Part shown: in pieces, positions 20,814 through 64,000 of the stretch | Layout of the letters: every line of letters begins with the position of its first letter | Numbering within the stretch: the stretch's first letter is position 1 | Assembly: GCF_964355755.1 (NCBI RefSeq) | Contig: NC_092677.1 | Span: 16,462,101-16,526,100, forward strand | Length of the DNA: 64,000 nucleotides | From: Antedon mediterranea | Taxonomy: Eukaryota; Echinodermata; Crinoidea; Comatulida; Antedonidae | Reading direction: 5' to 3' | Translations under genes and position numbers: made by a program | Notes under the pieces: model-generated | The model's database searches: none | Seen by the model: only the letters and a program-made list of their open reading frames with translations | What the model was told of the DNA's origin: nothing

Positions 20814-23800
20814 ATGGGAAAGAAACATAAAAGACATAGGGTTGAAAAGAAAGTTGTTGAAGAAGGTAAAACATTTTAATAAAAGATAAAAAAGTAAGCC
20901 AAGGCTAGGGCCTAGCCTCTAGGCCTCTTTGAGTCTTTTCTTATTAGTTTGTCCATCTGGTAGTCAGCCAATCAAGGAAAGCAAAGCGTCTCTGTCTCGC
21001 TATTTATGGAGACTGTCCGGGATTATATAGGCTACTAGGCTAGCCTAGTTAGGCCTATGATGGTAAATCCATATGATCAGTCTGGCTTATTATTAGGCCC
21101 TAGGCTTTTCTGAAATTTTACTATATTTTCAATTAGGCTAGGCCTAATCAATAATAAAAGCCAAAAAAATAATTAATTATAAGTAAATAAATAGAATAGG
21201 CCTGGCCATAGCCTGGCCCTACCTAGGCGAGTTAGGCCTATAATATCTACTACTAGAAACTAGGCCTATAATATATTAAATGCATAGGCCAGTATTAATG
21301 ATTTAATATCATTATATAAGACTACAACAGTACTTTAAATTCTAATTACAGCATGATGGGCATAATACTACTAGGCTAGTATAGATACTGTAGGCTAAAA
21401 AAAAATCATGCCACAGTAAAACTAAATACTGTAATTCTGCTGCTTAACACTTCACTGACTAAATCATCAGGACTTATTATTTTTTTTAGGCACAGAAGCT
21501 AAAGAACCATTGCCAAAATTAGTATTAAAGGTAAGCAGAGGTATTACGAGAAAGAAGGAAGATGTTTCCTTTGAATCGCCCTCTCCACAGCTAAACGAGA
21601 ACTATGAAGACTCGCCACGAGAGGCACACATCAAAAAAAAAAGAAGACGAAGACAAAAGGAAGAAAAAGAATTAGAAAGTGCAGATGAAAAGAAGGTATT
21701 GTATATTTTAAAATGTTATTCTACCTAGGCCTATTTGATGCAGCCAAATGAATTATCTGTAGTGATAAAGCCTTTATAAACCATTTGAATATTTATATTT
21801 TGATCAGAGGAAAAGAGAAGATTTAATTAAAGAAGATCACACTGATGTAGAAGCAAAAGAACTTCCAGAAGATCAAGTGACATCGGCAGCATCAAACGTG
21901 GAAGAAGAAATGGAAGGAGTTGAACCAATACCTTCAGAAGTTACAGAAGAGGAGGAAGAACAACAACCTGTGAAGGAAGAAGATGAGAGCATCGATTGGA
22001 ACTCCACACCAGCACGCCGTGCCTTCCTGTTGAAGTTTGTTGAAAAGAGAAAAGCTCCATCAAGGAATTGCCGTGGGAAGGAGGACCAAGATCCGTCTGT
22101 GTCCCCATTACAGAAAATTCTGGATAATTTGCAGAAAGCATTGCAAAGGTATTGTGATCGTTCTTAATCACCGTAAGAATCACAAGCTAGGTTAAATACT
22201 TAACAAATGCATGTGCTAGTTTTTTCAACTGACCAATTATGACTTGCCTCCTATTCTAAATTCTAAACTCTAATGCAGTTAAATTAATGTGTTTCCAAAT
22301 ATACCTCGAAAACACCAAAGTGTAAAACATTTGCGTACACTAAAGTACATTAGTGTAAACTAGAGAACATAGTGTATGCGGCAAGTGTTTTCAAATGTGT
22401 CCATACTCTGGAAACACCAGTTAAATTAATGTGTTTCCAAATACACCTCAAAAACACCAGAGTGTAAAACATTTGCATACACTAAAGTACATTATTGTAA
22501 ACTAGAGAACATAATGTACACAGGTGTTTTCAAATGTGTCCATACTCTGGAAACACCAGTTAAATTAATGTGTTTCCAAATACACCTCAAAAACACCAGA
22601 GTGTAAAACATTTGCATACACTAAAGTACATTATTGTAAACTAGAGAACATAATGTACGCAGGTGTTTTCAAATGTGTCCATACTCTGGAAACACCAGTT
22701 AAATTAATGTGTTTCCAAATACACCTCAAAAACACCAGAGTGTAAAACATTTGCATACACTAAAGTACATTATTGTAAACTAGAGAACATAATGTACACA
22801 GGTGTTTTCAAATGTGTCCATACTCTGGAAACACCAGTTAAATTAATGTGTTTCCAAATACACCTCAAAAACACCAGAGTGTAAAACATTTGCATACACT
22901 AAAGTACATTATTGTAAACTAGAGAACATAATGTACGCAGGTGTTTTCAAATGTGTCCATACTCTGGAAACACCAGTTAAATTAATGTGTTTCCAAATAC
23001 ACCTCAAAAACACCAGAGTGTAAAACATTTGCATACACTAAAGTACATTATTGTAAACTAGAGAACATAATGTACACAGGTGTTTTCAAATGTGTCCATA
23101 CTCTGGAAACACCAGTTAAATTAATGTGTTTCCAAATACACCTCAAAAACACCAGAGTGTAAAACATTTGCATACACTAAAGTACATTATTGTAAACTAG
23201 AGAACATAATGTACGCAGGTGTTTTCAAATGTGTCCATACTCAGGAAACACCAGGTGGTTTCAAATGTGTCCATACTCTGGAAACACCAGGTGTTTTCAT
23301 AGATTTATACTTACTGTACATCTTACTGTATTTTAATATGTTGTTCTTTAGGAAAGATCAGAATGAGTTCTTCACTTGGCCAGTTAATGATGTCATAGCA
23401 CCAGGATATTCAAGTATCATCGCATACCCAATGGACTTTAGTACAATGAAAGTGAAAATAGAACATGGTAGTTACAATAGTATCAATGAGTACAAGGTAA
23501 TTTAATAATACCACACTGCATGTTTTTAAATTTTATTTTATGTATTTAGGCAATGTGGCCAAGGATTACCAATTAAATTAATCACTGTCCTATCAGATAG
23601 GTGGTAAATCCCCCTGATACAGGTGCTATTTTGTGAACCAGTTCACCGGGGTAACCCCCTACTATTCTTGAATAATGAACTGGGTTCTTTAAAGTGCACA
23701 CAGGTTATAAATGTATACACTCGACCTACGGTTTATAGTCCTTATTTGAGAAGACTTGTTCTACCACCAGAACTAGGAGCGAGTCGAGCTCGAACCATTG

Positions 23801-34275: not shown

Positions 34276-37200
34276 TTAAGAGTCTGATACCTTTAACTTC
34301 ATATACACCGATGTCGGCATCCTCATCACGCAGGCTTTCATGTTTCGCTGTCGGAATGGTGGATGATGGAGAACAATCTCATACCACTGGCCAAGGCCTC
34401 CTTGGTCTACCCCTCGCAAACACTGGTTTTCCCACTGCATGTAAAGATCTCCCATGGCAAGTATTTGATCTTCAATATGAAAAACAGCACACACATCTGA
34501 AAACAGAAGTTTTCAGAAGTTAAATATAACCTACACAAACATTTCCTACAATGCAAAATATGTTAACTTTAGTCTTTCATGCTTAAATGTTAAAATTGGT
34601 GTTTTAACACAAATTTCCACAATGCAACAAATTTACTTCATGGATATGGAATACGATCACTTAGTTTTAAGGACTTCCTTTCCTTTTATTTGTGATATAT
34701 TGAATTATTATATTTGATTCATATTTTTTTGTATTGCCTAATTCTGGTGGACATAATACGTTAACTAATTTTGGTTTTCATTTGCAAACCTCTATATTTT
34801 ACATTATAGGATTATTTACAGTACTTACCACCATACAATGTATTAATATGTCTATGGATTTAATTCTTTAAATGACACAAAATGGTATACTCACTTGATA
34901 GATTTTGCATACTACATAAGTTATTCGGCGTTAGGCTAATCCAAAGTCCTTTGCTTCCTATATAAAGCTCTGACCCGCAGAACTTCATCCGATTCTCAGC
35001 ACTCGGACACATTAAGTTACGTTTTCCACCAAACACAAATATTGAATCCCCGACAGCCACTCCAGATGCGTATGCTCGACGTTCCTTCATGGGAGCAGAT
35101 GCCTTCCACTGCTTCAACATTGGATCGTAACACTCCACCGACTCGTACACATGACTTTGCGAACAACCGCCTATTACAAATATTTTTTTTTGCATAACAA
35201 TACAGCATGGAAACATACGCGGAATCGGCATAGATACGGAATATTCCCAAGTATCCGTTAATGTATTGTAAACTTCCATTGAAGTTAGTTCTTGATCGTT
35301 TGAGTTATTTCCACCGATCGCATAAATATCATTGTAAATTGCGACAAGATTATGGTTTTCGCGTGGCGTCAACATCGGTGATATTGCAGTCCATTGGTTC
35401 AAGCAAGGATTATACTTTTCTCCCGTGTTTAGAACGATTCTACGGCGGTTGTGACCATAAGTATAAGTCCTGCTGCCACCAGTTACATAAACTAGTCCCC
35501 CTGCAGCACAAAACAAAATTTTGTTTTAAATGTGTGTATGAAATTTACTTATTTCAATACTTTATTAGCTATGACGTCAAAGTGACAAATGAGATTAGTT
35601 CTTAGTAGTCCCTAATCTTCAAGGTCAAATTCAACACCCATAAAAAAACATTATGAATTTCTATAGACACGCCATCGCCAACCCTCATTATTGGTCTTTC
35701 ACACCTGATTTGTTTTTTTTTCAAACTTATTAGATCGCAACTTAATGTAACATTTTCCTTATGTGCCGCACACCAAAACAATATGTACGTAGCCTCGTGG
35801 TCCATTGTGAAAACAAAATAGTTGCTGATGCAGTATGTGTGAACCTGAACTGGAGTATGTAAAACTGAACTGGAGTATGTGAAACTGAACTGGAGTATGT
35901 GAACCTGAACTGGAGTATGTGAACCTGAACTGGAGTATGTGAACCTGAACAGGAGCAGGTGTGAAAGACCCTTTAAAGAGACAATTCATTGGTCATAGTG
36001 GGTTTACTGTGATTGTAACTGTTACATTAAAATATAGAATATATAAATAGAGTCGGTGGTTTAAAAAAAACTGTTTTGGCATCCACTCAATTCCATGATT
36101 TAATAAGGCAATAGATTAAAAATTAATTTTTCGCTTAAACGTTAACATCGTGATTTACCTGTTGCAACAATGGCATGATCTACTCTGGGCATCAGCATCG
36201 GTGCCATTGGGATCCAATATTGGACTGGTGCTGGCACTATCAAATAGGAACTTGGTGACTCTTTATTTTCCCTGAGGGACAAAATAGGCTATATAGGCTA
36301 TAGGTCATTGAAAAAGGCAATGTTTCAACATTTAGAGATGGTGCGCAAAACAAGTTGATTTCCAAATGCGATCAGTCAACAACGTCGCATAGCAACAATT
36401 CTCAAATTTCAAAATCATGTTAATTATCACTTCACTAGATATTAGGTAGGCTAATTCCAAATGACACATGATGCATAATTAACCAATCAAATTGCAAGAA
36501 TGCAATCAGGTGTGTTATAATTGTAAATGTCACTCACCCTTTAGAAACACTTCCAGCAACCATAATCACATTCTTGTAACCTCTCATATTGCTCGTAGGA
36601 GGATTCGCAAAGTATTTGCGCACAAGTTCTGTAGCGTCTTCATCCGCACTGATCAACGGGTTCTGTAAAATCTCATCATACATGTTCAAAGGTATGTTAC
36701 ACCATCGAACCAATCGTAGAATCTTTTCTAGGTGCACGTGGCGGTACTTCTCATCGTACTGTATCCACTGTATTAATGCACACACGAGAACAAAATCACA
36801 TCTATTTTGTGATACCTAAAAGAAAAAAATATCAATACAGGATTCAACCAAGAAGGAGGAGGGAGATGGATGTAAATATTCTACCTATCAATGCATCCCT
36901 TATACCAGAGTCAATTCAGTTGTGAATTTTAGATCTATTTTAATAATACAGTCAACTCTCCCAATGCCAGACTCTCTGAAAACTGGAAATTCTTCCAAAA
37001 CCAAACGTTTCCATCCAAAAGGTCCTAAATGTCTTTTTACCATTACAAACACAATTTAAAATACCAGATTTTCCTGAAAACTAGATATATTTGGCCAACT
37101 GAGGGCGTGTGACGCAGTGTGTTGGACGTTGGACTACCGATCGTCAGACCTAGGTTCGAATCCACCTCTCGCCGCATTGCTTGTATCCGTAGGCAAGATA

Positions 37201-42489: not shown

Positions 42490-45400
42490 ATGTCGAATGT
42501 TACTTTGCAATATAGTACAAATAATAGTATTTCGGATCCAAATGATCGACCGGTTGTTGTTATTGGACAGCTTGGGCATTTAACTTCACTTCCATTTGAC
42601 AAAGTTAAAACCAAATTCGGCACTCGTGTCGACGAGGAGGTAACAAATTGCTGCTGCTGATGAGTGAGCACTAGGCCTAGGCCTAGATAGCTAACCGTAT
42701 TTTGTAGGCCTAGAAATATTTTAGTAAAAGTCAGAGTCAGAACCATTATTTATTATCATTTAATAGGCTAGGTAATTGCCATATATACCCTTTACTGTAA
42801 ATTTACTGTACATAAAAAAAACCCATTTGTATTTACTAGCTAGGCTAGGCCTACCCTTCCATCCGGCTAGAGTAGGGCCAGGCTATCATGAATTTTCTTG
42901 AGCACTGAGCTGACTGATTAATTTGTTTATAAATTGATTAATGATTTTATTTTTCAGACTTTCAAAGTTGCAGTATCGTCTCTACAGCCGTCACCGACAG
43001 ATCACATATCGATTTGGTTCAACAATGCCACTATTGCTTGTCTGCCGTTAAAAGCCAGTAGACATAATACACCGTCGAGAGCTCATGCTATTCCAAAGCT
43101 TGTAAAAGCCTATTTGACCAATGTTGGAAATGAATGTATAGTTGTACGTTAACATCTTGATACTTTCAAAATTCTTATAAACTCCAAAATAATTAGTAAT
43201 CAATCAATCTTTCAATCAATCTTTATTTCCATCATAACAAACATAAAATACAAATTAAGATGGAGGACGTACAACTAAAGATGAAGGACGTACAACTAAG
43301 GCAGAGCCTGAAATAAACGTTGTACTACCTTTACAATAATAACAATAACATTAACAATAACATAATAATGATTAAAAAGATAATGCTATCAGGAAAATTA
43401 GTATTTTATTCATGACCATCATTGACCGTGCGTGAAATTCCTTGTTTTATTAATTGGTAAGGTTTACTAGGCTTTTGCTTCTTAATTCTAACTAAAAGGC
43501 ATAATCAAATAAAGACAATTTTACATTAGATAATTGTTTAACAGTTTCATACTTTATTTCAGTTCCTTTTTAATAATGTAATCATCCATCATTATTTTTT
43601 AAAGATTGTATGTGAGCGGAAGTCTGTGTTTGCTTCTGGTTGTGCTGTAGCACGTGCATTTCCACTCTACTCACGCAAGACCGGTGCAAATAAATTACGA
43701 AAACGCACAGTGACTGTAGAGTTTATTTTAGTTGGCGAAGATAGCGACCAAAGCCTGACAGAAGATGAGATGAATTGTCTGGAACAAGCAGCTAAAGGCA
43801 TCAGGCTGACAGGTCGTATAGTAGATACGCCATGTAATGAAATGCATACAGATGCGTTTATTGAGGCAAGTTATATTATTACTAGGGGTGGATCAGTCCT
43901 GAATTGAGGTCGAAATGGGGTGGGCACATAAGCCAGCAGATGAAGGGTGTCTGATTATTTCTGCTGCCGATTATTTTATTTTTTATATTTTTATTTTATG
44001 TCTTTAGGCATTGTGGCCAAGGATTACCAATAGTGAATTAATCACTGTCCTGTCAGATAGGTGGTAATCCCCTGATGCAGGGTGAAACAGTTCACCGGTT
44101 ATAACTCTTTAGGTATGGTAAACGACGCCTTAACCGCTCGGCCATTTGACTCGGTTATGGAATGCTTAATTCTTGACGAGTCATTTTCTCACTCCACTCC
44201 ATTTTCTCACCCACTCCACTCCATTTTCTCACCCACCATTTAAAGCAGTTTCGAAATTATAATAATAACAGTTTATTTTTATTAATATTTTTTAGGAAAT
44301 TAAAATAGTTGGGAGTGATTTAGGGATTGAACCAATCATTGTCAGAGGTGAAGAACTGGATAGTCGTGGGTTTGGAGGTATCTATGGAGTGGGCAAAGCA
44401 GCTGACCACCCCCCTGCAATGGTTGTGCTCCAGCACAAATCACCATCTGCCACACAGACTGTAAGCTGGGTGGGCAAGGGTATCGTGTATGACACGGGTG
44501 GACTATCTATCAAAGGAAAGGTGAAGAAATTGGTTTTTTTTTTCCATACTCATCCAACAGCGAGCACAAACTCCAGGATGATTACAGGATGAATATTAGA
44601 CTAACTATTTTATAGTTTATCGTGCTTATAAACTTATTTGAGTGGAGTGGAGTTAAAAGAGTTACAACCTTGACACTAGGTCAGGATTGAACCCTGAACC
44701 TTGTGATTGGAAGGCAAGCACGTTAACCATCAAGCTATGTACAGCTCCACTATTAACCACCAAGCTACAGCTCCACTATTTAACCACCAAGCTACAGCTC
44801 CACTATTTAACCACCAAGCTACAGCTCCACTATTTTACCACCAATCTACAGCTCCACTATTTAACCACCAAGCTACAGCTCCACTATTAACCACCAAGCT
44901 ACAACTCCACTATTAACCACCAAGCTACAGCTCCACTATTTAACCACCAAGCCACAGCTCCACTATTTAACCACCAAGCCACAGCTCCACTATTTAACAA
45001 CCAAGCTACAGCTCCACTATTTAACCACAAAGCTACAGCTCAATTATTAACCACCAAGCTACAGCTCAACTATTAACCACCAAGCTACAGCTCAACTATT
45101 TAACCACCAAGCTACAGCTCCACTATTTAACCACCAAGCCACAGCTCCACTATTTAAACACCAAGCCACAGCTCCACTATTTAACCACCAAGCTACAGCT
45201 CCACTATTAACCACCAAGCTACAGCTCAATTATTAACCACCAAGCTACAGCTCCACTGTTAACCACCAAGCTACAGCTCCACTATTTAACCACCAAGCTA
45301 CAGCTCCACTATCTAACCACCAAGCTACAGCTCCACTATTTTACCACCAATCTACAGCTCCACTATTTAACCACCAAGCTACAACTCCACTATTAACCAC

Positions 45401-48400
45401 CAAGCTACAGCTCCACTATTAACCACCAAGCTACAGCTCCACTATTTAACCACCAAGCTACAGCTCCACTATTTAACCACCAAGCCACAGCTCCACTATT
45501 TAAACACCAAGCCACAGCTCCACTATTTAACCACCAAGCTACAGCTCCACTATTAACCACCAAGCTACAGCTCCACTATTTAACCACCAAGCTACGGCTC
45601 CACTATTTAACCACCAATCTACAGCTCCACTATTTAACCACCAAGCCACAGCTCCACTATTTAACAACCAAGCTACAGCTCCACTATTTAACCACCAAGC
45701 CACAGCTCGACTATTTAACCACCAAGCTACAGCTCCACTATTTAACCACCAAACTACAGCTCCACTATTTAACCACCAAGCCACAGCTCCACTATTTAAC
45801 CACCAAGCTACGGCTCCACTATTTAACCACCAAGCTACAGCTCCACTATTAACCACCAAGCTACAGCTCAATTATTAACCACCAAGCTACAGCTCCACTG
45901 TTAACCACCAAGCTACAGCTCCACTATTTAACCACCAAGCTACAGCTCCACTATTTAACCACCAAGCTACAGCTCCACTATTTTACCACCAATCTACAGC
46001 TCCACTATTTAACCACCAAGCTACAGCTCCACTATTAACCACCAAGCTACAGCTCCACTATTAACCACCAAGCTACAGCTCCACTATTTAACCACCAAGC
46101 TACAGCTCCACTATTTAACCACCAAGCCACAGCTCCACTATTTAAACACCAAGCCACAGCTCCACTATTTAACCACCAAGCTACAGCTCAACTATTAACC
46201 ACCAAGCTACAGCTCCACTATTTAACCACCAAGCTACAGCTCCACTACTTGTTAAATTGATAATTTACTTAATATTATCTTTCTACTTTCATCTGCTAGT
46301 TCATGACTTTTCTCATTAGCCTAATGCATCGGCCAGCAAGATAGATCTATGACATAAGCTACTGTGTGTACTTACTAGATTAGAGAGAAAACATGTGCTT
46401 AGTTGCTATCATTAGATCTAAAACAAGTTTAAATGTATTAGGGTCATAATTTCATTCAATAATGTATTCAATTTGTAACTAAAACAGATTTATGGATATA
46501 TTGACTATAATATGCTTTATTCATATACTTATCTTATATTACAGACAGCAATGCCTGGAATGAAAAGAGATTGTGGGGGCGCTGCAGCAATCCTTGGCGC
46601 ATTCGCAGCTGCTGTTAAACTAGTAAGTATAATGTGTATTGGCCTAGGTGGGGAAGTGACTTTCATCCCTGGCCTATGATGTAATGCTTTGTTTGGATTT
46701 TAGTGCTTGAACATTTTGGCAAATTTAAGGGTGTGCTTAGACTCCATATCATTCCCATGATTCATTTTAAGTCATTAAGCATTAAACATAGTTTAGTATC
46801 ATAACAGTGGGGTAGGGTCAGACGCCACAATACCCAAATTACCAACTGTTTATTTGAAACATGTACATATATTGTAGTAACTATTTTTTACCTTTTTAGG
46901 GTTTTAAAGAAAATTTGAATGCAGTTTTCTGTCTAGCAGAAAATTCAGTAGGACCTTTAGCCACACGGCCAGACGATGTTCATATACTATATTCTGGAAG
47001 GTATGGGCATTTTACAATTTAATAATTTATTTATGGCTTGCAATCACCTTTTCTATCTATATATTTTATATTTACTAGCAATTACTTGTGCTCCACACGG
47101 TCTTTGCGGAATCAAGCTCGACTGTACTGAGCATTGATATCAATGGCCACCTGTTTTACTTATTAACTAATAAGCTAACCGTGAATTACGAAATGCATTG
47201 TTCAAGGGATACGTGTAATTAATTAAAACACCAACAATGCGATTAATCAAGACTAAACACTGTTTTAATTTGGCAGCCCTTGGCATGGTATTTGTAGATC
47301 TTGCCATTGCGGTACACAACAGAGGAGGTTGCGTAGTTGATACGAGATGCAACAACATGGTTTCTTTACAGTAATACTGTCTCAAAATACAATGGCCTAA
47401 TGTAATTTACCCTAAGGGTACCTTTTTGCTAGCTCTAATATTAAATTTAGAATTGATATTTGTTATTTTTTTCTTTGCTAGGTCTGTCGAGATTAACAAC
47501 ACAGATGCTGAAGGAAGACTTGTTCTAGGAGATGGTGTAAGTTTTGTTGTCCAACCTTTGACCTTTTCTTGACCTAAACATACTATGTTTGTACACATTT
47601 TCTGCCAGTACGATACTGGACCAATATGATTGTTTTACAGTCTAGCCTCAAGCCTGTTGTCTATTCTTTACTGCAACAACCAATATTGTATTTAATGGTA
47701 ACTTTACTACTGGTTTGCAAAAATAATTGCCGGTTTATATCTGTCAAATGTCTTTAACATACATTGAATTGAATTTCCCTTTGCAAAACATATATAGTAT
47801 TTCTAAGAAAAACTTGAGTTAGTTATATTTAAAATATAATTCAATTGTAGGTTGCCTATGCAGTAAAAGATTTGAAGTCCGACATAATCCTTGATATGGC
47901 AACACTGACTGGAGCGCAAGGAATTTCCACTGGAAAATATCATTCCGCTGTCCTTTGCAACACTGAGCAGTGGGAAGATGCAGCTGTCAAAGCAGGTAGA
48001 TACAAGTACAATAAGGACTGTTTAATTAGAGTGAACATGCACAAAGTTCACGTCCACATGGGTTCTAGTCGACTGATAGGTATATGAACCTCTTGTATAA
48101 AGTGAACGTTCACGTTGACATTCCAGTGTGAACGTATCATGACATCATGATCTTTGTAATTATGGGCTTAGGTCAGGCTGTGTATGAATGATGGCTGGTG
48201 TTCTGATATGAACACATTTTTATCATGTCCCGATATTAATGTCATATTTCAATGCTGTTGTTTTTAATAGGGAAAAATAGTGGCGATCTTGTTTTTCCTC
48301 TGGTTTATTGTCCCGAGCTGCATTTTAGTGAATTTGGAAGTGCTGTTGCTGATATGAAGAACTCTGTAGCTGTAAGTTTTCTATAGTATTACTGTATCAG

Positions 48401-52185: not shown

Positions 52186-53171
52186 TATCGTCCTTTCATT
52201 CAAACTGCATATAAAAATACTTTGCCATAATGTGTGGCTATTCACTGAAACCTTACACATTATAACTTCCCAATCTCAGGCACCAGAGTAAATATCATAT
52301 ATCATAAAGATGACAATTATGATTTCCTTGTGATCTGCTCGTGATACTGACTTGATCATAAGTAAATCCTAATACTGATAATATTTACTGTAGTTTTTTT
52401 GCAAGGCTTTAGTTAGTGTTCTTGCTCATAAGCAGATCATGAGTAAATCCTAATAAGCCTACTGCTCAATATGTTAGTTACTGGGATTGGAAGATTAACT
52501 GTAAGGTTTCAGCTTAGTGAAAGCATATGTTTATTTCTCACGAGAAGATCATGAGCAAATCCTAATAATGATCAATATTTACTGTAATTATTGGGTTTCA
52601 GTTAGTGAAGACATGTTCTAAATCCTAATAGGTCTACTGATCAATATTGTATTTACAGTAGTTAATGGTAGATATGTGTAAGGTTTCAAGTTTTGTGAAG
52701 ACATGTGCTTGAGCATGATTAGATCATGAGCAAGTTAAGATAAAAAAAATAGCTCATGTGATTGTAAAAATATAGTAGTGTAGTACTGTAGTACCTTTGA
52801 ATAGAATTGTAATACTAGTTGAATTTGATTGAAAAGAAGGAGACTCGAAAGAATGAAATTCTGGACTAATTTTCAATCTTTTATTGTCCTGTGTTTTATA
52901 TGAATGTAACACACATACATTATTTATACACAGTATATGTTATTTCTGTAATCATTGATGTCAATAAAAGAGCCAAATGTTGCAATAGACAGTTTTTGTA
53001 AGCTTTTCTGGTCAGTGCATATATACATATATATATATATACATATACATATATATATACAATTTTTGTTAAAAATTACACAAATTTTATTCATTATTTA
53101 AACTGCATGATACTATACAGTATATAAAAATATCAAAATGTAAATAGTACTATGTTATTACAGTATTATTT

Positions 53172-53390: not shown

Positions 53391-53862
53391 TATGGTTATA
53401 TATATAAATATAAAAATATTTTAGTAGGAATGTATACATATAGCAAAATTTCAATATATTATTTATACATTTTTGTTCTAATTTTAAAGCTTAACTAATA
53501 GGAGGAAAGTACTCAAATAAAAACAATTAATCTTTAGTTAGACCGGCGTTCTGCAAACTTTTAATTATCTTGGCTCAAAGTTTGCAGAAAGTCGAGTTAA
53601 GCATCAATGAAATCTATATTTATATATGTCTAAAAATTATATTTGCCCAAAAAAAGAATTACAGCAACTCTGAATTAAACACAACAGAAGGAAACTAAAA
53701 AGAAAGTAAAAAGGCCACCAGAAAGATAAAAATATAACTGGATAAACCAAATAAAAAAAGATTTAAAAGACTTTAGTACAATATCAAACCATCCTGCCCA
53801 AAATAGACAAATATGGGAAAAAATCCTGGAAAGCGTAATGTCTGAGAGAAAGTGTTAGAAAG

Positions 53863-53986
53863 TCACACTAAATAAGGTGTGTCTATAACTGAGGCTCCGA
53901 CTCCTACACCGCCCTCATCTACACCATTTGGTTTTGTTCTTACTAAATGTCCTGCAAAGTCGTTCATTACAGCATTTTTTTTGTCA
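53863..53986 (-). CDS. GSS: Alternative (distal) terminal exon of glutathione synthetase
   Basis: 124 nt, the same length and phase as the proximal terminal exon at 57386-57509. It is preceded by a good acceptor (TTTTTTCTAG) and ends in TGA. It reads [39 protein letters not shown] (last 21 split here for clarity: NGVDEGG / VGVGAS / VIDTPYLV). 27 of 41 residues match the proximal exon by my count; changes are mostly conservative, so it has been under constraint. The substrate-loop dipeptide Ala-Ala of the family is Gly-Val here. No other GSS exon copy is visible between the two, so a second gene is unlikely. Confidence 0.85.
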
Positions 53987-54252
53987 CTAGAAAAAAAATA
54001 ATAATTTAGAGTTAAAAAAATGTTAGATTATGGCATTTATATTAGAGAAATATTTTTTTTCAAATAATTATGTCCAATGCATACACACAAAACAACTAAG
54101 GCAATTTGCTGTTATCTGTAAATATTATAACATGGAATGGAACATAAACTAAACAGCACTACATACATACAGAAATATTTGTTCAAATATGTCCCATGCA
54201 TACACTACAAAACACAATACAAACAAACAAGGAAGTCAGTATAGTAAGAGTG

Positions 54253-54370
54253 TAAGCTTGATTCTCCACTTTGATGCAATGCAATGATGTAGGCGCAATA
54301 CAATGATGTAGGCGCAATACAAGTGAGTTGACCAATCATTGTGTTGTGGTCAAATTACTTGATTTTTTAA
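54253..54370. mobile_element. Degraded MITE of the AAGCTTGGTTCCCACTAG family
   Basis: 'taagcttgattctccact', 'gttgaccaatcattg' and 'tggtcaaattacttg' match the 29755-29915 copy. A 17-18-bp piece 'gcaatgatgtaggc' is locally duplicated. Confidence 0.45.
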
Positions 54371-54910
54371 ATAGAATGCAACACACAGTAAATTACAGAA
54401 TCTGTAAATCAAAGTCTCTTGCATACACTATTGAAACTTGCTAGGAAGCAAATGAACTATAAAAAATCTAAAACCTATGGGCGGGCTTTTGCTGATTTTC
54501 TCATGCTTTGACACCACAGGAGCAAATACAGAATAGTTTAAACAGTGCTAACATAAAAAATATTAATATTAGTCAGGGTGGATGAGCACATGTCAATGAG
54601 TGCACCCTGGACCCACCGCGACCCTCTGCATTCTCCCCTGAACGATGTCATATCAAGATTGTTATTTAGTTGCCGCTTTTTTTTTTCTTTGCAAATGAAA
54701 TTTAAAATTTTTTTCAGTGTTGCCATTTTAGCTGCCAAGGCCATTTTGAACCAGTTTTTCTTGCCAGCAGGTCCTATAGCACTGAAAAGCAATATCCCTT
54801 GATGAATGTTGATAATAGCATTGATTAATGGTTATGAAATATATGTCATGCATACAAATTTGATGATGCAACATGTGACATGACAAAAGCATATAGTACA
54901 TACTAAACTA

Positions 54911-55057
54911 TAAGCTCTGTCTAAACTATCAAACTTTATGTGACAATGTGATATGCCCATATATAGATGTGATGATGTCATATCACTACCATATTTTTTC
55001 ACCACCAGATTAAGGCACATCACACTCAAACTAGTTTGATAGTGTAGACAGAGCTTA
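54911..55057. mobile_element. 147-bp MITE with TAAGCTCTGTCTA ends
   Basis: The left end TAAGCTCTGTCTAAACTATC and right end GATAGTGTAGACAGAGCTTA are inverted and flanked by TA. Subterminal 'gtgatatgcccatatat' and 'ggcacatcaca' motifs. Lies between the two GSS terminal exons. Confidence 0.7.
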
Positions 55058-55872
55058 ATAGTAACCGGTCATACCAAAAATTCTCCCAGGAGGCCTTGTA
55101 TCGCCTGGTAGGGTTGTATGATACAGAATGATATAAAGTACATGTTATTATCATGCCCTATGGGTAACTTATATATTTTTTTTCAAAAACAAGTTAAAAT
55201 AATATAGTTCAACTTTTCATTCATCACAACGTGTTCAATGCAGTGCACAAATCATCACTTATCACAGAGGGATTTTTGGAATAAACCTAATCAGTATTTT
55301 CACATTAAAAATGTATAAAACACTGTACAAATAAATATCACAATAACATTTATATCAAAAAACCCTACAGGCCCTAGTATGCCCAGTATGACCAAGCTCA
55401 TACTAACTAACCATTGAACAATCCAACACTTGACTTTACTTGGTGGTAGTATCCATTGTACACTCGTAACACAGAAATTCAAACACACAAACCGAGACGG
55501 TGTCCAGATTAATATTAATTTTTATTAATTCTATGGCAGTGACCCTTTCATTTAAATTAAGTGCTGTATCTCCACATTCGACAATATTTTCCACGTATCA
55601 TTATGAAAATTCCATAATACAGCATCTCATGTGTGTCACATGTGGTGCCTGTATCATGTACTGTAAAGTTAGGTTTAGTGTTAGGAATTATGGTCTTTGA
55701 TTCTAGGCGATACATGTGAAACACATGTGATACTGTATTACAGAATTTAGATAAAGATACTGGAGAATCTAGGTACACTGACTGTGACAGTACCGAGGAA
55801 TGTGTTCAGCACAATTATTCTATCAACCTTCATAAATAATTATTTTTACATTATATTTATTTGTATCTTCTT

Positions 55873-56285
55873 GCAAAGAACTTATAACACAAGAATCTCC
55901 TGTTCGTCCGAAGCGCGTAACAATTTCAAAAGGCATTGTGGGATAGAATAGAGCTATGGGTGGCGCCATTGTGAGCCATGGAGTAGGGCGCCCGCATCAA
56001 ATTAGAAAGTCAAAATCATAGAGGGGATCTGCTAATGCTCTAGGGGGGGATAGAGTAATTGACTGAGGAGTAGGGCGCCCGCATCAAATTAGAAAGTCAA
56101 AATCAAAGAGGGGATCTGCTAATACTCTAGGGGGGGTAGAGTAATTGACTTCCTAGTTTGGAGGGGGCGCTGCTCCATGCTGTGAAATGGCGTCGCCCAG
56201 TTTGACCTTTTAACCCTGTACTTCCGATACTGTGTTTTGAATGCAAATTGAAGAACAGGAGATTCTTGTGTTATAAGTTCTTTGC
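55873..56285. mobile_element. 413-bp MITE with perfect 33-bp inverted ends
   Basis: The ends start GCAAAGAACTTATAAC and match perfectly over 33 bp. TTCTT flanks both sides, a possible 5-bp target duplication. A segment of about 90 bp starting GGAGTAGGGCGCCCGC is tandemly duplicated inside (near 55980 and 56069). Perfect ends point to a recent insertion. It abuts a LINE 3' fragment. Confidence 0.8.
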
Positions 56286-56289
56286 TTCT

Positions 56290-56640
56290 TATCTATATAT
56301 CTATATTTATTTTTAAAAATCCATTTTGGTCCAATCCGTTTGGTAAAGATATTCTGGCTTCTAATAGATTCAGGGATATGTTACCGTCGTACAAATCCGA
56401 TAGACTCAGTACTAGATCTCTCAGAAGTTATGCAGGCAATGGCTTGGAGAGGCGTAGGTGTAGGACTGAAAGACTAAACAAGTCAACAATACCGTACCTA
56501 GCTAGAATCTTGTAACTTTTTAGGTTTACTTGTAATTTGTGTTTTTCATATTTGTATTTTGATGGAATACTTTTGTAAACATTTTCAGCTTTTGCTGCTG
56601 GTGTGGAAGTTGTTTTAAACCATAAATAAATAAATAATAA
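56290..56640 (+). pseudogene. LINE 3'-end fragment
   Basis: Reads PFGKDILASNRFRDMLPSYK then SDRLSTRSLR and CRTERLNKSTIPYLARIL before a stop, 3' UTR and an (AATA)n tail. The same peptide with stops occurs on the minus strand at 60690-60900. The CRT-R-KSTIPYL ending is the style of LINE ORF2 C-termini. Lies between the GSS terminal exons. Confidence 0.5.
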
Positions 56641-57385
56641 ACCTGGATCTGTAATTAAATTAAAAGATTATTAGTGTTGACTTAGACTTGCCACAAGTCT
56701 GTAGTTACTTTTCTTTATGTTAGCCCACAAGTCATTGTTTCCAATATTACGTGAATTATCACCTAGAACCTAGAAAACAGCGGACTGTATTAAATTTCTA
56801 ATCTCATTTGTTAATAATGATTATCAAGAATTTACCAAAAAGTATTTCTTAAAAAAACAACTTTCCAAAAAGGTTGGAAAGACAATTAACTATAAAAAAA
56901 TATTTTACTATTAAAAATAATTTTTGCATAAAAAAGTTATTTTGGCATTTAAAATATTATGAGTAATCAAAAACAACCTCTATAAATACACAGGTACCTG
57001 TATTTCCAATATTGGTATATATTACTGTATTCACTTATTAAAATAATATTTATTTCTAACAAAAAAATAATAATAATAAAATATTACATATTTCATTTTA
57101 AAAATCAATAAAAGGTTTAGGAGACCAACAATCTTTGAACATTTTCATGAAATTTCTGCTCGAATAATTAAGATATTATTAACAAAATCTTAATAAAAAA
57201 TCCTTTCCCACTCTTAGTAATGTTAATTACCTCCTACATAATCAAATATATTTGCCTGTGAGTCTGACCAAAGCTAAAAACAACGTTTATTAGTACAAAT
57301 AAATGGAATATTAGTACACTTTGGTTATTTTACTCAAGGCATGTATTAATTCCCCCTCTAACTATTAAATGTTACAAAACCATAT

Positions 57386-60300
57386 TCATATCAAGAAAGG
57401 TGTATCAAGTGCCGAGGCCCCCGCAGCGACACCGCCCTCATCGACTCCATTGACTTTAGTTCGTACTAAATGTCCTGAATACTCGTTCAGAACAACATCA
57501 TTTTTGTCACTAGAAAAAGAAAAGTGAAATAGATACAAAAATGGGTTAACCATAGGATTGTGAAGTAGTATTCGCTGTAATTAGCAATTATTCTAACATC
57601 ACTGTTATTTGGAGTGGCACTGTCTTAAACGCTCAACACACAATTTTAGCAACCTCAAGTACAACTTAGCAATCAGAAAAACAAATGAATTCTATAATAT
57701 CAACAACATTCCAAATTTATGACTTAACTGAACTACTCATTCAAACTCAAAGATAGTTATATATAAATATTATATAAAAATCACCAGCGCTGGGCGTACT
57801 TTCACATCAAGTATGAATTCAGTTATCTGGTGTCAAGGTTATTCATGTTTACTGTTGATTGGTCAAAAGGTAAAAAATTGTACGATTTTAAGAAACAAAT
57901 GGCTTCTTAATCCATCGCTCCGAATTAGGAGCCCGAATCAGTTATGGATTCAAATCATATGATTTTGGTGTAAACCAATGAACCCGTTTTCCCACAATAC
58001 TTTTCTCAGGGCACCAGACCGAATTTGGTCATGATGTGAAAGCAGCTTTACACCATACTGTATCTCTCCATCGCTGATAACACATCACTGTAAAACCAAA
58101 ACTGAAGGCAAATATTACTGATTATGGTTATTTATGCTGTTAAAATATTCTATATAATCCCTAGTTGCCTCAACGAATGTGAAGGGAAGAGTTGCCAATA
58201 TTATCAATTAATGTATTGTATATTTATTTAAAACAAATCTGAGTTTAATAATTTGCTCACCTAACCAGTGCTCCAAACATGCCAAACTCTGAGACCATAT
58301 TCTGTAGTTCCGGCAGTTCTGGTGACGACACTACTTTGTAGCCTGGGACAGTGACTGGGAATATTCTATCCATCAGGATATATGCATTTCTTTCTGATGT
58401 GTTCTGAATTCCCAGAAGTTTGGTGCGAATGTCAACTCCATAGATATTATTTCCTAAAATAATACCAACACAATTTAGTAAAGCTCATTTAGAGAAAATT
58501 GAATGCTGAACTTGCACCATTTAGATGTTTCAATGGCAAAAACTACATTTAAAAAAGAGTAAAATTAGTTAATTTTGTTTATCTTAATCTTCTTGGTTAA
58601 AAATTGATGGAATAATAACAAAATAGCAAAAAACTGATTTCAAATAATTAATCAACTGGGAATTAAACTAGATTTTATAAACTACGTTTCACAAGGCTCA
58701 AGTGGTGGATCTGTTTTTGGCCAATGAGAAAAGTTGTGGAGATGTAGAACTGCTTTCACAAAGGAAAAGATAGGTATAAGTTATGTCATCCACAACAGCT
58801 ACAAATCCAATGTTATTAATTCTGTATACAAATAACTGTTCTCTCTTTAGAAAGATATTGCAAACAAAAGTTGCTTTAGTCTCTTACCCCCTCCTTCCTT
58901 GTTGGGTTTCATCACAAATTTTTCTGGTGAGGCGATTGCCATTGCGATGGCCTTGTCACCTTCAGCACCCTAAAAGAATTTGACATTTAAAATACTAACT
59001 TTATAGCACTATTCTGTACTTTTTAAGGCAAATTGTTGATGAAAGATGGGAGGTACATTATGTACAATAGGGATGGAATGGTGGAATTGTCAGGAATCAA
59101 AACACAATGTGAGGGAAGGCAATAGGAAGGTTCCAAGGCCTGAATCCGTTGTCTATATTCCTGGACAAGTATAATTAAAATTGCCTATATATAAATATTA
59201 AACTTGAAGGTGAACTTCAATAGAATCAAAAGAACATTCCTAAATTAATTGCTGTTAAAATTTGTATTAACTTGTGGCAATGATATGAAAGTTTTATTTA
59301 TTTATTTATTTTATTCATTTCCTCCTAAACTGTTCGTCCTAAAGACCCATTCAGACAACAAACAGAAACAAATTTAAAAACCAATGACAACGATAAAAGA
59401 CAACCCAGAAAACCACAACTAACTCTTAGCCCAATTACAGGACTTGGCACCAATAAATGAAAGGTTTGTGTACAAATGTTTATTATTTTCCCTCTGTAAA
59501 GTGGTTATCCATAGACGTAATTATGAGGTATATTACGGTACAGTACTTACAATATCAAGAGAGTATTGGCCAGTGAATGTTGCCCTGATTGCCGCCACTT
59601 TATCTGGATTTGATATGAACCTTTCAACCATCCCTGGCTTAGCTATCGCTTGTTGAACTTTCTTAGTTCCAGCTAAATGTAAAGAAACGTTTGGACAACA
59701 TATTGCACGAGACCTCGCTGCCAACAGTACAGCATTCCACTCCTGCATGAATTAAATATTCTACATCAATAAAATGTGGAATCTATTTGTAAATCAATCC
59801 ATACACAATATCTACAAACTATGGAAAGATTAGACTCTGTCTAGGTAATGTTGATAAAAGATGGTGGTAATTAAAGATTAGAAACAAAATAGGAAAAAAA
59901 GATGAGTTTCGAAAAACCTGGCGTAATGTTATAAGAACCGGAGCACTGACCAATTAGCCATATGACTTGATTTATGAAGGAGCGATGTTATTACTAGTTA
60001 AGTCAAATATTACACACCCTCAATTAGGCCGTACAGTAAAGGTAAAGGTGAGTCCCGTGTTCAATCTGAACGTGGGGGAATGAGCTGTTAGGAACTCATT
60101 GTACTAAGCCTCGGCATTAGGGTGGCCAGTTCCTTTCCACGCCGCCTTTTTTCTCCCTAGTATTTTCAACTAGGTACTTAATTACAGCTGAGTGGACTGG
60201 GAGTTGTCGGAAATTGAACCCAGGTCTATCTGTATGACAGTCAAGTGTCCTAACCACTCGGCTTTCCAACCACTTTACCGTAGAGTAGTGTCTGGATTGG

Positions 60301-63300
60301 AGATGCCAAGCGTAGATGCAGCAAATTAAAAAAAAAAGATATGCCTGTTGCATATTCTATGATTTAAATATACATTTAATACATACCGTCTCAGACTTAA
60401 AATGTGAAGGAATGTAACCATCTCTGTAGTAAACTATGGCAACTTCAGTACCATCACTAATTTTAGGGGAAAAAAAAAAATGTAAAACTAAGAAACTGAA
60501 CAAAGTACTGGGCACTCTTTAATATTCAGCCCATATTGAGCATAGATAACGTAACTGATATCAATAATTAAATCTTTTTCTTGATATGGCATGGTCTGAT
60601 GTTATAATAATTAATTTATAAATATTTGCAAATTAAAAATTCAGGGTGGATTACAATAAAAAAAGAAAAAAGACATTAAAATACAAAACAAGTTACAAGT
60701 TACTCTAAATATTCCATAAGTATGGTATTGTGTATTTTCTTCATCTCTCAGTATGACACCTACACCTCAACAAACAATTAGTTGCACTACGTCTGAGAGA
60801 TCTAGTAGTACTGGTTCTATCAGATTTATATGGCAGTAACGTATGCCTGAATTTAGTAGAAGCCAAGATAAATTTACCAAATGCTAAAGCTTTCTTTACA
60901 TGTACTGGTATTGGGAGAGTTGACTGTATTTCTAAAACTATCTGTGCTAAAGTCCATTACATGTATAACATTAGGGACTTTACGAAACATGACAGTTAGG
61001 GGAGGACTTCTTGTGTTCGCTAGAGTGTAAAATTATTTCTAATCGTTCCTCGTAAACGGGAAAATGGCAACTTTATCGTCCTCAAAAAGACGACAGAATT
61101 TCACACTAAGCTCTGCTTAATTTGTTAAGGTTCGTGCATAAATTATTCATGAGCACCGTCCTGTGGCTTCCTGTCCTGTTTCTTAAAATTGACTTGTATA
61201 GGATTTGTCATATTTATATATACATACTATACAGTACTTACACTATTAAGCGCCTATCATCTGACAGTTTTCCTTTTGAACCAATGTCCAATAGGGTAAT
61301 TCTCTTTACTGGAATGTCCAAATTGATTTTCTTAACTTCAAACTCTAAAAGTCTTTGGTCAAATACATTTCTTTCTGTAGTTGAGACAACAAAGACGATA
61401 GCTGCCCTGCATTTAGATGAAATATACAGCATTAGGAACCAAAACAAAACGTCATTTTTCATAATTTACTATAAATCGAAATAGAAGTTCAGACAGGTGG
61501 GAAAAAAGATTTAATGTCACAGACACCTATTAACACCTCCTCCAGTTCCGGCTCTAACGCGGCAAATACAATGGCGTCAAAATGTTTCGATTTCATGACA
61601 CACATGCAGCTCACGCCAATCCTCTTACTTGATATGGTCGTAGCTCCTTGATGAGTCATGAAAATGCTAATGCTGTATGCGCAATTTGACGCAAGCCTGA
61701 ACTGGATTCAGACCCGGAGTAGGTGTGAAAAAAACTTTAAAGCCCTGGACCCGTCACATATGAAACTTACTACAGAAATTTTACTACTCAGACTGCTTCA
61801 GCAGTGAATCTGTTGCCTAATTACATATGGAATACCTGGATACACACTCACTATATTTACTGAGCGTGAAAACTTAGAAAGACTGTTTGAACATAATATT
61901 AAAAATAATAATGCACATACTTGGGTGTGTCGTAAACTTCCCATGCTTTTACAAATGCTTTTGAGTACTTTTCTATGTGATTATTTGTCGGCAGTGACTT
62001 TTCTACATCACATCGTCCACCAAGAAGTTGGGTAGTGTATCTATAAATAAAATAGCATTTTGTGATAGTGATTACTTATAGGTCATCCACGTAGTCATAG
62101 TGGAGGTACCAAGAGCCAAGGTGATGCTATCAAAAGGTAACAAGGTTTGCATAGTATGACAATTTTGTAGATAAACAGAAAAACACAATGATGAGAGGCA
62201 TGTTTTTTTTGTTCCGAGATGTCCAGAGATGTTAATGTGTGCACATGTATTGACCTACAATTAAAGTAACCAATGTAATCGATTTATATAGATGAGACCC
62301 CCTAAGTACTAAAGTTAAATTTGTTGAGACCCACTAACCTACTTTTATTTACCTATGTACTAGAGTTAAATTTGTTGTGAGACCCAATAAGCTACTTTTA
62401 TTTACATATGTACTAGAGTTAAATTTGTTGCTACTTTTATTTACCTATGTACTAGAGTTAAATTTGTTGTGACAGCCCCCAAGCTACTTGCTATAGTGTT
62501 TATCTCAACCATCTTTGGCAGCATCTCATCTGTCGATCCATCCAACAGGTAATCTGATCTTAGAAGTGCTAAAACGCCGGCCTAGAAACAAAAACACACT
62601 TTTAGGTCCCTGGCATTTGAATTGTCTTCTGCATAATTATCATTTTTACTGTACAGTAAAATGTTACAATTGCAATACATTCTTATAATTGTAATCATTG
62701 TTATAATTATCAGAATCACTTTTGATACCATCATCATCATGTATTTTAACTGAAAAATTAAAATCAGTAATACTTTAGTCTTCTAAAGCCTACAATAGCA
62801 AACTTCACAAAACTCATGTTTAAAAACTCAGAGTTTGCTACATTTTGGAGAAATGTCAGGTTTATAATATATATATACATATAATGAGACATTATATAGC
62901 GCTATTTCGTGAAGATCAGAGCGCTTTGAGTGTTAGTTGACTATTAAAATTATCTAGAAAGGCTAACCAAAGGCAAGAAATAGGCTAACAAAAGACAACT
63001 CGTTAATGACAATAAAAAAAATAAAACAAAGATGATTCAAACACCACCCCTATCTACACAATTAAGTTTAAAAGTCCAGTTCCTGGAGGTTGCCACTTTG
63101 CTTACCTCACATAACTACACAACTGTCATTTCAAACCTTAGGAAGAAGCTGTAAAGCACCTACCTTTTGCAAATTAGTTATCTACAGCTTAAAGATTTGT
63201 CATTTAGTTCCCGGTCTTCAACCCGTCCACAGCGCTCTCGCTGCAAAGAAGTTGGGAGCATCCGCAAAGCCGCTGGAGCATGCGCAAAGCATTGTTGTTA

Positions 63301-64000
63301 TGCAGTCATTATGGGCAAGCACTATAATATGGTTGATTGATAGGGCACTTACTTCATCATGTGACTCACAATTGTCCAATCAAATGACTGGAATCTCTTT
63401 AGGTGTTATATAATCTACACTAGCAAACTTTGGCAACTTGTTATTACCAAACTTGTTGTTTGCTAAAGTTTGCAAAGTACATGCTACTGTAGACTAAGCT
63501 TACCAGATGGGTAAAGCAGCCTCAATATCTGTGTACTTACATCAGCAATACCTTCTTCTAATATTTTTTCCAATATCTTCAACAGCCTGCCAGTGAAATC
63601 GTCAGATACTGCTGCTCTGAAACAATTTTCAATAAAAAAAAGATTCAGTATTGATTATAGTCCGGTTGAATAAATAACACAACCGCATACATTCAGTATG
63701 AATCATGGTGTCCCAAAGGAGGGGTTCTACTTTACTTAAGACATATGGATCAGCTAGCTGGTTTACAAACGTGTCCTGTTCAACAAGAAAGAAATATTGT
63801 TTTGTGATTCTTACGATTTCAATGTTTCTCGTATAAAATCATAGTCTTTTGAAATAAGATACAACAGCTCATTAATGTACATTTGCCCGTCTGCAAGTTG
63901 GTGAAAATATTTCCTTGGTATCGGTGCTGGCAGAAGAGCATGTGGCCCACACATCACAGTATCTGAAGAAGTTGGATTCTCAAAGGTCCGAAAAACGAAA
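57386..64000 (-). CDS. GSS: Glutathione synthetase, 5'-truncated by the window edge
   Basis: GSS joins gamma-glutamylcysteine and glycine with ATP, the second step of glutathione synthesis, as a cytosolic homodimer. Exons (minus strand): 64000(partial)-63815, 63616-63541, 62581-62445, 62040-61921, 61406-61242, 60456-60387, 59742-59551, 58969-58888, 58453-58261 and terminal 57509-57386. All GT-AG and in phase. About 30 N-terminal codons are missing. Landmarks: [28 protein letters not shown] (Mg ligand Glu and Asn of the family), [27 protein letters not shown] (glycine-rich loop with the second Mg-ligand Glu), and EFGMFGALV. The end has GHLVRTK (substrate-binding Arg and Lys) and [10 protein letters not shown] minus-strand AATAAA at 57286-57291, 95 nt past the stop, supports this exon as a real transcript end. 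A second terminal exon lies at 53863-53986. Confidence 0.95.
60060..60300 (-). repeat. SINE family C-like, reverse
   Basis: On the minus strand 'gaaagccgagtggttaggac' (A box) and 'tgggttcaatttccgac' (B box-like), with further body 'ccgaggcttagtacaatg'. In the GSS intron after exon 60456-60387. Confidence 0.55.
60690..60900 (-). pseudogene. Second copy of the LINE 3'-end fragment
   Basis: The minus strand reads [23 protein letters not shown]..., RCRCHTER then a stop, and YTIPYL, a degraded match to 56290-56515. The coding reading and stops support a dead LINE remnant. In a GSS intron. Confidence 0.5.
62310..62475 (-). repeat. Tandem repeat containing a GSS exon donor
   Basis: About four copies of a 40-60-bp unit (ACTTTTATTTACCTATGTAC followed by TAGAGTTAAATTTGTTG). 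On the minus strand each carries the end of the exon 62581-62445 and its donor CATAG|GTAAAT. The exon-proximal copy is the one in frame; one intronic copy has a changed exon end (CATAT), another is intact near 62353. Confidence 0.8.

Follow-up and report, generated by a model that had tools for sequence, protein, structure and literature searches.

Can a single glutathione synthetase gene yield two enzymes with different versions of the loop that covers the bound acceptor amino acid? This question is raised by a stretch of 64,000 nucleotides (nt) from the genome of the crinoid Antedon mediterranea (contig NC_092677.1, here C8:16462101-16526100; referred to below as the window). On its minus strand, the window carries a gene for glutathione synthetase (GSS), here called gene B, which has nine common coding exons and two possible tenth exons, a proximal one (57509-57386) and a distal one (53986-53863). 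We put at roughly 0.6 the probability that these are genuine homologous alternative last exons, the choice between which would sooner alter the kinetics or regulation of the enzyme than give it a new product.

The GSS genes were modelled by spliced protein-to-genome alignment against human GSS in a genome of 354 Mb on 18 contigs. The C-terminal residues of the human query were also recovered, unchanged, in PDB entry 2HGS by a PDB search. The coding exons of gene B are as follows, in window coordinates:

63815..64000, minus strand, coding exon 1, which runs past the end of the window; spliced alignment, with the ATG at 64092 (92 nt outside the window) extrapolated from neighbouring sequence, where it follows an AG acceptor, an arrangement conserved in the tandem gene A
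63541..63616, minus strand, coding exon 2; spliced alignment to human GSS
62445..62581, minus strand, coding exon 3, with Mg/ATP and Cys-side residues (VEINTIASS); spliced alignment
61921..62040, minus strand, coding exon 4; spliced alignment
61242..61406, minus strand, coding exon 5, with the canonical gamma-Glu pocket (ERNVFDQR); spliced alignment
60387..60456, minus strand, coding exon 6 (YRDGY); spliced alignment
59551..59739, minus strand, coding exon 7 (AGTKKVQQ); spliced alignment
58888..58969, minus strand, coding exon 8 (KPNKEGGG); spliced alignment
58261..58453, minus strand, coding exon 9, with the donor TTAG|GTGAGC common to either last exon
57386..57509, minus strand, proximal last exon, 124 nt including the stop TGA
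53863..53986, minus strand, distal last exon, 124 nt including the stop TGA; loop DEGGVGVGASVID

Both last exons are preceded by AG, both are in phase with exon 9, with which they share a split Ser codon, and both stay open up to their own stop. Joined to exons 1-9, either one completes an intact frame of 477 residues, the first 436 of which are identical. The original prediction had described two homologous last exons of 124 nt with matching phase, acceptors, and open frames, and all of its coordinates proved correct.

The product of gene B is a well-preserved member of its family. A profile search carried out exon by exon gave 16 exon matches to PF03917 (eukaryotic glutathione synthetase) above the curated cut-off in gene B and its two sister genes, A and C. 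Gene B is about 42% identical to human GSS and retains R125, E144, N146, S151, E214, N216, Q220, R267, Y270, and K305, as well as K364, E368, G369-371, N373, E425, R450, and K452. Among these, E214, N216, Q220, R267, and Y270 form the gamma-Glu pocket, and the ATP/Mg residues and the catalytic Arg450 are likewise intact. The sole departure in the dipeptide pocket is the replacement of Ser149 by Ala.

The two last exons are clearly related to one another. They agree in 27 of 41 residues (65.9%), well above chance (tblastn 2e-10 to 6e-17), and the similarity is confined to the exons, with none in the 300-nt flanks upstream and downstream. Since the exons share only 73.6% of their nucleotides (over 121 nt) and their flanks and introns cannot be aligned, we rejected an assembly or haplotype artefact as the origin of the pair. 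The loop dipeptide is Ala-Ala in the proximal exon and Gly-Val in the distal one. It aligns without gaps with Ala462-Ala463 of human GSS and with Leu487-Pro488 of soybean homoglutathione synthetase (hGS; PDB 3KAJ), so that the earlier mapping of this dipeptide onto the specificity site of hGS stands. The marks of hGS itself were absent: where hGS has Leu-Pro in the loop, gene B has Ala-Ala or Gly-Val, and where it has Met-Val before the catalytic Arg, both isoforms of gene B have Leu-Val.

When the whole genome was searched with the distal exon as query, exactly four last exons came back, the two of gene B and one each of genes A and C; no retrocopies or additional orphan GSS last exons were found elsewhere in the genome. 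Gene A (C8 16533592-16528704, minus strand) lies in tandem directly upstream of gene B and has its own, third last exon; it additionally carries Ser151Gly. Gene C is a divergent copy on contig C4 (about 14636379-14641110, plus strand). Its gamma-Glu pocket is altered (E214D, N216A, Q220H, D268T), and it carries Gly369Ser; it is a candidate for an altogether different substrate. The exon pair of gene B is part of a larger set of three genes with four loop versions. At human positions 461-464, these read V-AA-G (B-proximal), V-GV-G (B-distal), I-MV-G (A), and L-ST-G (C), and the common Ala-Ala is present only in the first.

Could the spliceosome use both exons? With an acceptor weight matrix derived from the three GSS genes (26 other introns), all 234 AG sites from exon 9 down to 53.6 kb were scored. 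First place went to the distal acceptor (13.5 bits) and second place to the proximal one (11.1 bits), while the true acceptors of the GSS genes scored from -1.2 to 10.4 bits on the same matrix. Candidate polyadenylation signals and an intervening element were located as follows:

57286..57291, minus strand, AATAAA, candidate poly(A) signal for the proximal exon, 94 nt past its stop
53560..53565, minus strand, ATTAAA, nearest candidate poly(A) signal for the distal exon, 297 nt past the distal stop
55873..56285, no strand assigned, short inverted-repeat element resembling a transposon, located between the proximal and the distal exon, with 36-nt arms that are 97% complementary

The inverted-repeat element also holds a 70-nt tandem duplication (97%) at 55980-56136. 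Separately, a transposon sequence (44 nt) common to the regions upstream of the distal exon and of the last exon of gene A was considered as a sign of common origin and rejected, because the element occurs in multiple copies in the window.

From these features, a mechanism can be proposed. The 41-residue C-terminus, with the loop that closes over the acceptor amino acid, would be an old tandem duplicate within gene B. If exon 9 is spliced to the proximal exon, which has its own AATAAA, the canonical Ala-Ala enzyme would result; skipping of the proximal exon in favour of the distal one would give a protein with the same first 436 residues, a Gly-Val loop, and a different 3' untranslated region (3' UTR). 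We infer that both mRNAs are produced, and give the distal exon a somewhat better than even chance of appearing in mature mRNA. Since Ser149Ala is the only departure from a canonical dipeptide pocket, both isoforms would most likely ligate gamma-Glu-Cys, the difference between them lying in their affinity for the acceptor, their rate, or their regulation.

Given that the sequences downstream of the two last exons are unrelated, one may ask whether the 3' UTR, rather than the protein, is the important product of the switch, acting on mRNA stability or localisation while the protein change is nearly neutral. Most of the 14 residue differences are indeed conservative. The dipeptide change is not, however, and both gene A and the gene on C4 have changed the same positions, either independently or ancestrally. 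We consider this explanation very improbable.

All 11 residues that are invariant across genes A, B, and C and human GSS are present in the distal exon, with no stop and no insertion or deletion. Neutral simulations with at least 20 changes reproduced this intactness at P <=0.011, and the synonymous divergence (dS) of about 1 suggests a history longer than these simulations assumed. The pairwise ratio of nonsynonymous divergence (dN) to dS between the proximal and distal exons is 0.19, and changes specific to the distal exon fall at codon positions 1, 2, and 3 in the numbers 2, 2, and 7, resembling the other two tandem last exons.

The tandem genes themselves show an uneven pattern of divergence. 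Exons 1-9 of genes A and B are 84-95% identical (dS 0.24, dN 0.06), whereas their introns are mostly no closer than shuffled sequence (z below 4 in 8 of 9 introns, and 5.2 in intron 8), and BLAST similarity between the two genes stops close to the exon ends, at a distance of about 4-43 nt. The last exons are much further apart, with dS values of 1.08 (A-proximal), 0.90 (A-distal), and 1.04 (proximal-distal), and dN about 0.2 each. Their synonymous excess over exons 1-9 is significant by Fisher tests (5e-5 for A-proximal, 8e-4 for A-distal). Exon 8 of gene B is also an outlier against gene A, with a dS of 0.88 versus 0.06-0.33 in exons 1-7 and 9 (Fisher 0.002). In our interpretation, genes A and B go back to an old duplication, and their exons were made alike again afterwards, for which gene conversion is the simplest mechanism; the last exon would have escaped this process, as may exon 8. 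The diverged last exons look as if protected from homogenisation, and the split between the proximal and distal exons appears to be about as old as that between the two genes. In a tree of four sequences, the distal exon groups with the last exon of gene A and not with the proximal exon of its own gene; this weak grouping (bootstrap 70) suggests that the exon pair may predate the duplication of the genes.

Several of these observations weigh against functional alternative last exons. The first AATAAA past the distal stop lies as far as 771 nt downstream (53091-53086), and the two last exons are separated by 3.4 kb that include transposon-like sequence. A codon-model branch test on the distal exon alone gave a 2dlnL of 2.7, which does not firmly exclude neutral evolution; with as few as 40 codons, the fit is rough and unstable. 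The distal exon could have fallen out of use recently. The near-equal distances among the three tandem last exons, moreover, also fit a lost third gene, as sister genes would be about equidistant. The distal exon would then be a functionless leftover of a GSS gene downstream of gene B, whose exons 1-9 were lost so recently that the leftover still looks intact. Such an origin agrees with the layout of the minus-strand array, which runs from gene A through gene B to the orphan exon, and also with the clustering with the last exon of gene A and the weak branch test. Yet no traces of other GSS exons were found between 57.4 and 53.9 kb, and the exon combines the best acceptor of the interval with an intact frame and every invariant residue. 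Even if it did originate in this way, gene B could have captured the exon and made it functional. A dead relic is unlikely in our estimate, while being the alternative to take most seriously.

If both isoforms are made, does the Gly-Val loop change the product? The original prediction proposed two synthetases differing in acceptor preference or kinetics. Its structural basis stands, namely intact, phase-compatible exons that differ at the hGS dipeptide and possess the two best acceptors. The step from dipeptide to acceptor is weakened by work on other organisms. For a switch to a gamma-Glu-Cys-X other than glutathione speaks the position itself, which is the one that differs in soybean hGS in the 3KAJ alignment; in addition, all four loops of the genome differ from one another (AA, GV, MV, ST), and changing the dipeptide of the fission-yeast enzyme admits serine (PMC3473041). 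In that experiment, however, replacing Ala-Thr by Leu-Pro alone lowered the rate and allowed some use of serine, but none of beta-alanine; the latter required two further changes, to Met-Val adjoining the catalytic Arg (PMC3473041), where both isoforms of gene B have Leu-Val. The wild-type fission-yeast enzyme, with its Ala-Thr, is specific for glycine (PMC3473041). Similarly, nematode Clade 1 housekeeping enzymes differ from Ala-Ala and those of Clade 2 vary, while the tested enzymes of both clades prefer glycine (PMC5919673, Lilley and colleagues). A search for relatives in bacterial genomes gave only four, eukaryote-type glutathione synthetases of the SAR324/Lambdaproteobacteria type, including one from a Deltaproteobacteria bin; in all of them the dipeptide is Ser-Ala (loop GGVSAG), indicating that the first Ala is not universal. 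No report of animal homoglutathione was found in the literature searched, which included few subscription papers. Taken together, the nematode and fission-yeast comparisons make altered affinity, rate, kinetics, or regulation more likely than a different tripeptide, and a true switch of acceptor seems improbable.

We regard as equally doubtful a broader version of this idea, in which the GSS genes form a combinatorial locus. Gene conversion would keep their bodies alike, while old, deliberately diverged loop exons (Ala-Ala, Gly-Val, Met-Val) would yield different gamma-Glu-Cys-X thiols, chosen in part by splicing.

The remainder of the window contains an exon for an M17 aminopeptidase N-terminal domain (Pdase_M17_N2; 43542-43907, plus strand, opposite to the GSS gene), a bromodomain exon (23125-23505, plus strand), and a Kelch-repeat exon (34860-35525, minus strand). 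Degenerate 38-nt direct repeats with a core resembling CTCATGATCT occupy 52338-52743, and a tandem repeat at 45397-45878 is open in several frames. Elsewhere in the genome, a single, intact-looking Hox cluster was found at C2:7827797-8206141, which was read by eye as Hox1-8, 9/10, and three 11/13-type genes, with one gene inverted. The cluster marks the animal as an ambulacrarian, a group comprising echinoderms and hemichordates. We take these identities, and the placement, from knowledge of the family rather than from database matches.

Homologous alternative exons are already known as a kind. The literature searched, again with few subscription papers, yielded no GSS of any organism with such an exon pair, in line with what had been supposed at the outset for animals. 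The closest precedent found is the GMC-beta4 oxidoreductase of Anopheles gambiae (PMC1891103), which lies in a tandem gene cluster. There, a common N-terminal exon can be followed by any one of a set of tandemly duplicated C-terminal exons, which are homologous and hold the region that binds the substrate. It belongs to a different enzyme family, however, and has four C-terminal exons, with two isoforms supported by expressed sequence tags (PMC1891103), whereas the GSS isoforms are predicted from genome sequence. Tandem duplicated exon substitution events in animals also involve homologous exons used alternatively, and these are usually ancient (PMC9741552, PMC4465641). The exons of gene B differ from these in being terminal, so that their choice would be coupled to polyadenylation, and none of the events found concerned GSS.

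Other relatives vary the enzyme through whole genes. Legume hGS (soybean, PDB 3KAJ/3KAK/3KAL) has the same fold and is changed from Ala-Ala at the same loop positions (487-488), but is encoded by a separate gene. Its loop has Leu-Pro where the distal exon has Gly-Val, and Met-Val stands in front of its catalytic Arg in place of the Leu-Val of gene B. In rice, the hydroxymethyl-glutathione synthetase OsGS2, named for serine as acceptor, is the product of a paralogous GSS gene and not of exon choice (PMC6508825). The GSS-like families of plant-parasitic nematodes are animal duplicates with a variable loop dipeptide, like the present loci, but they consist of whole genes without a described exon pair, and some have lost the gamma-Glu pocket (PMC5919673). 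Gene B retains this pocket, while the copy on C4 has partly lost it.

A single GSS gene is said to hold for almost all eukaryotes (PMC5919673). Should the distal exon of Antedon be a dead relic, the locus would still be a clear example of exon-limited homogenisation with one exon diverging. If instead the alternative last exons are real, a locus varying only its acceptor-loop exon would constitute a natural experiment on what determines the third residue of glutathione-like thiols, and animal GSS would join a small group of metabolic enzymes in which splicing exchanges the end of the protein that binds the substrate.

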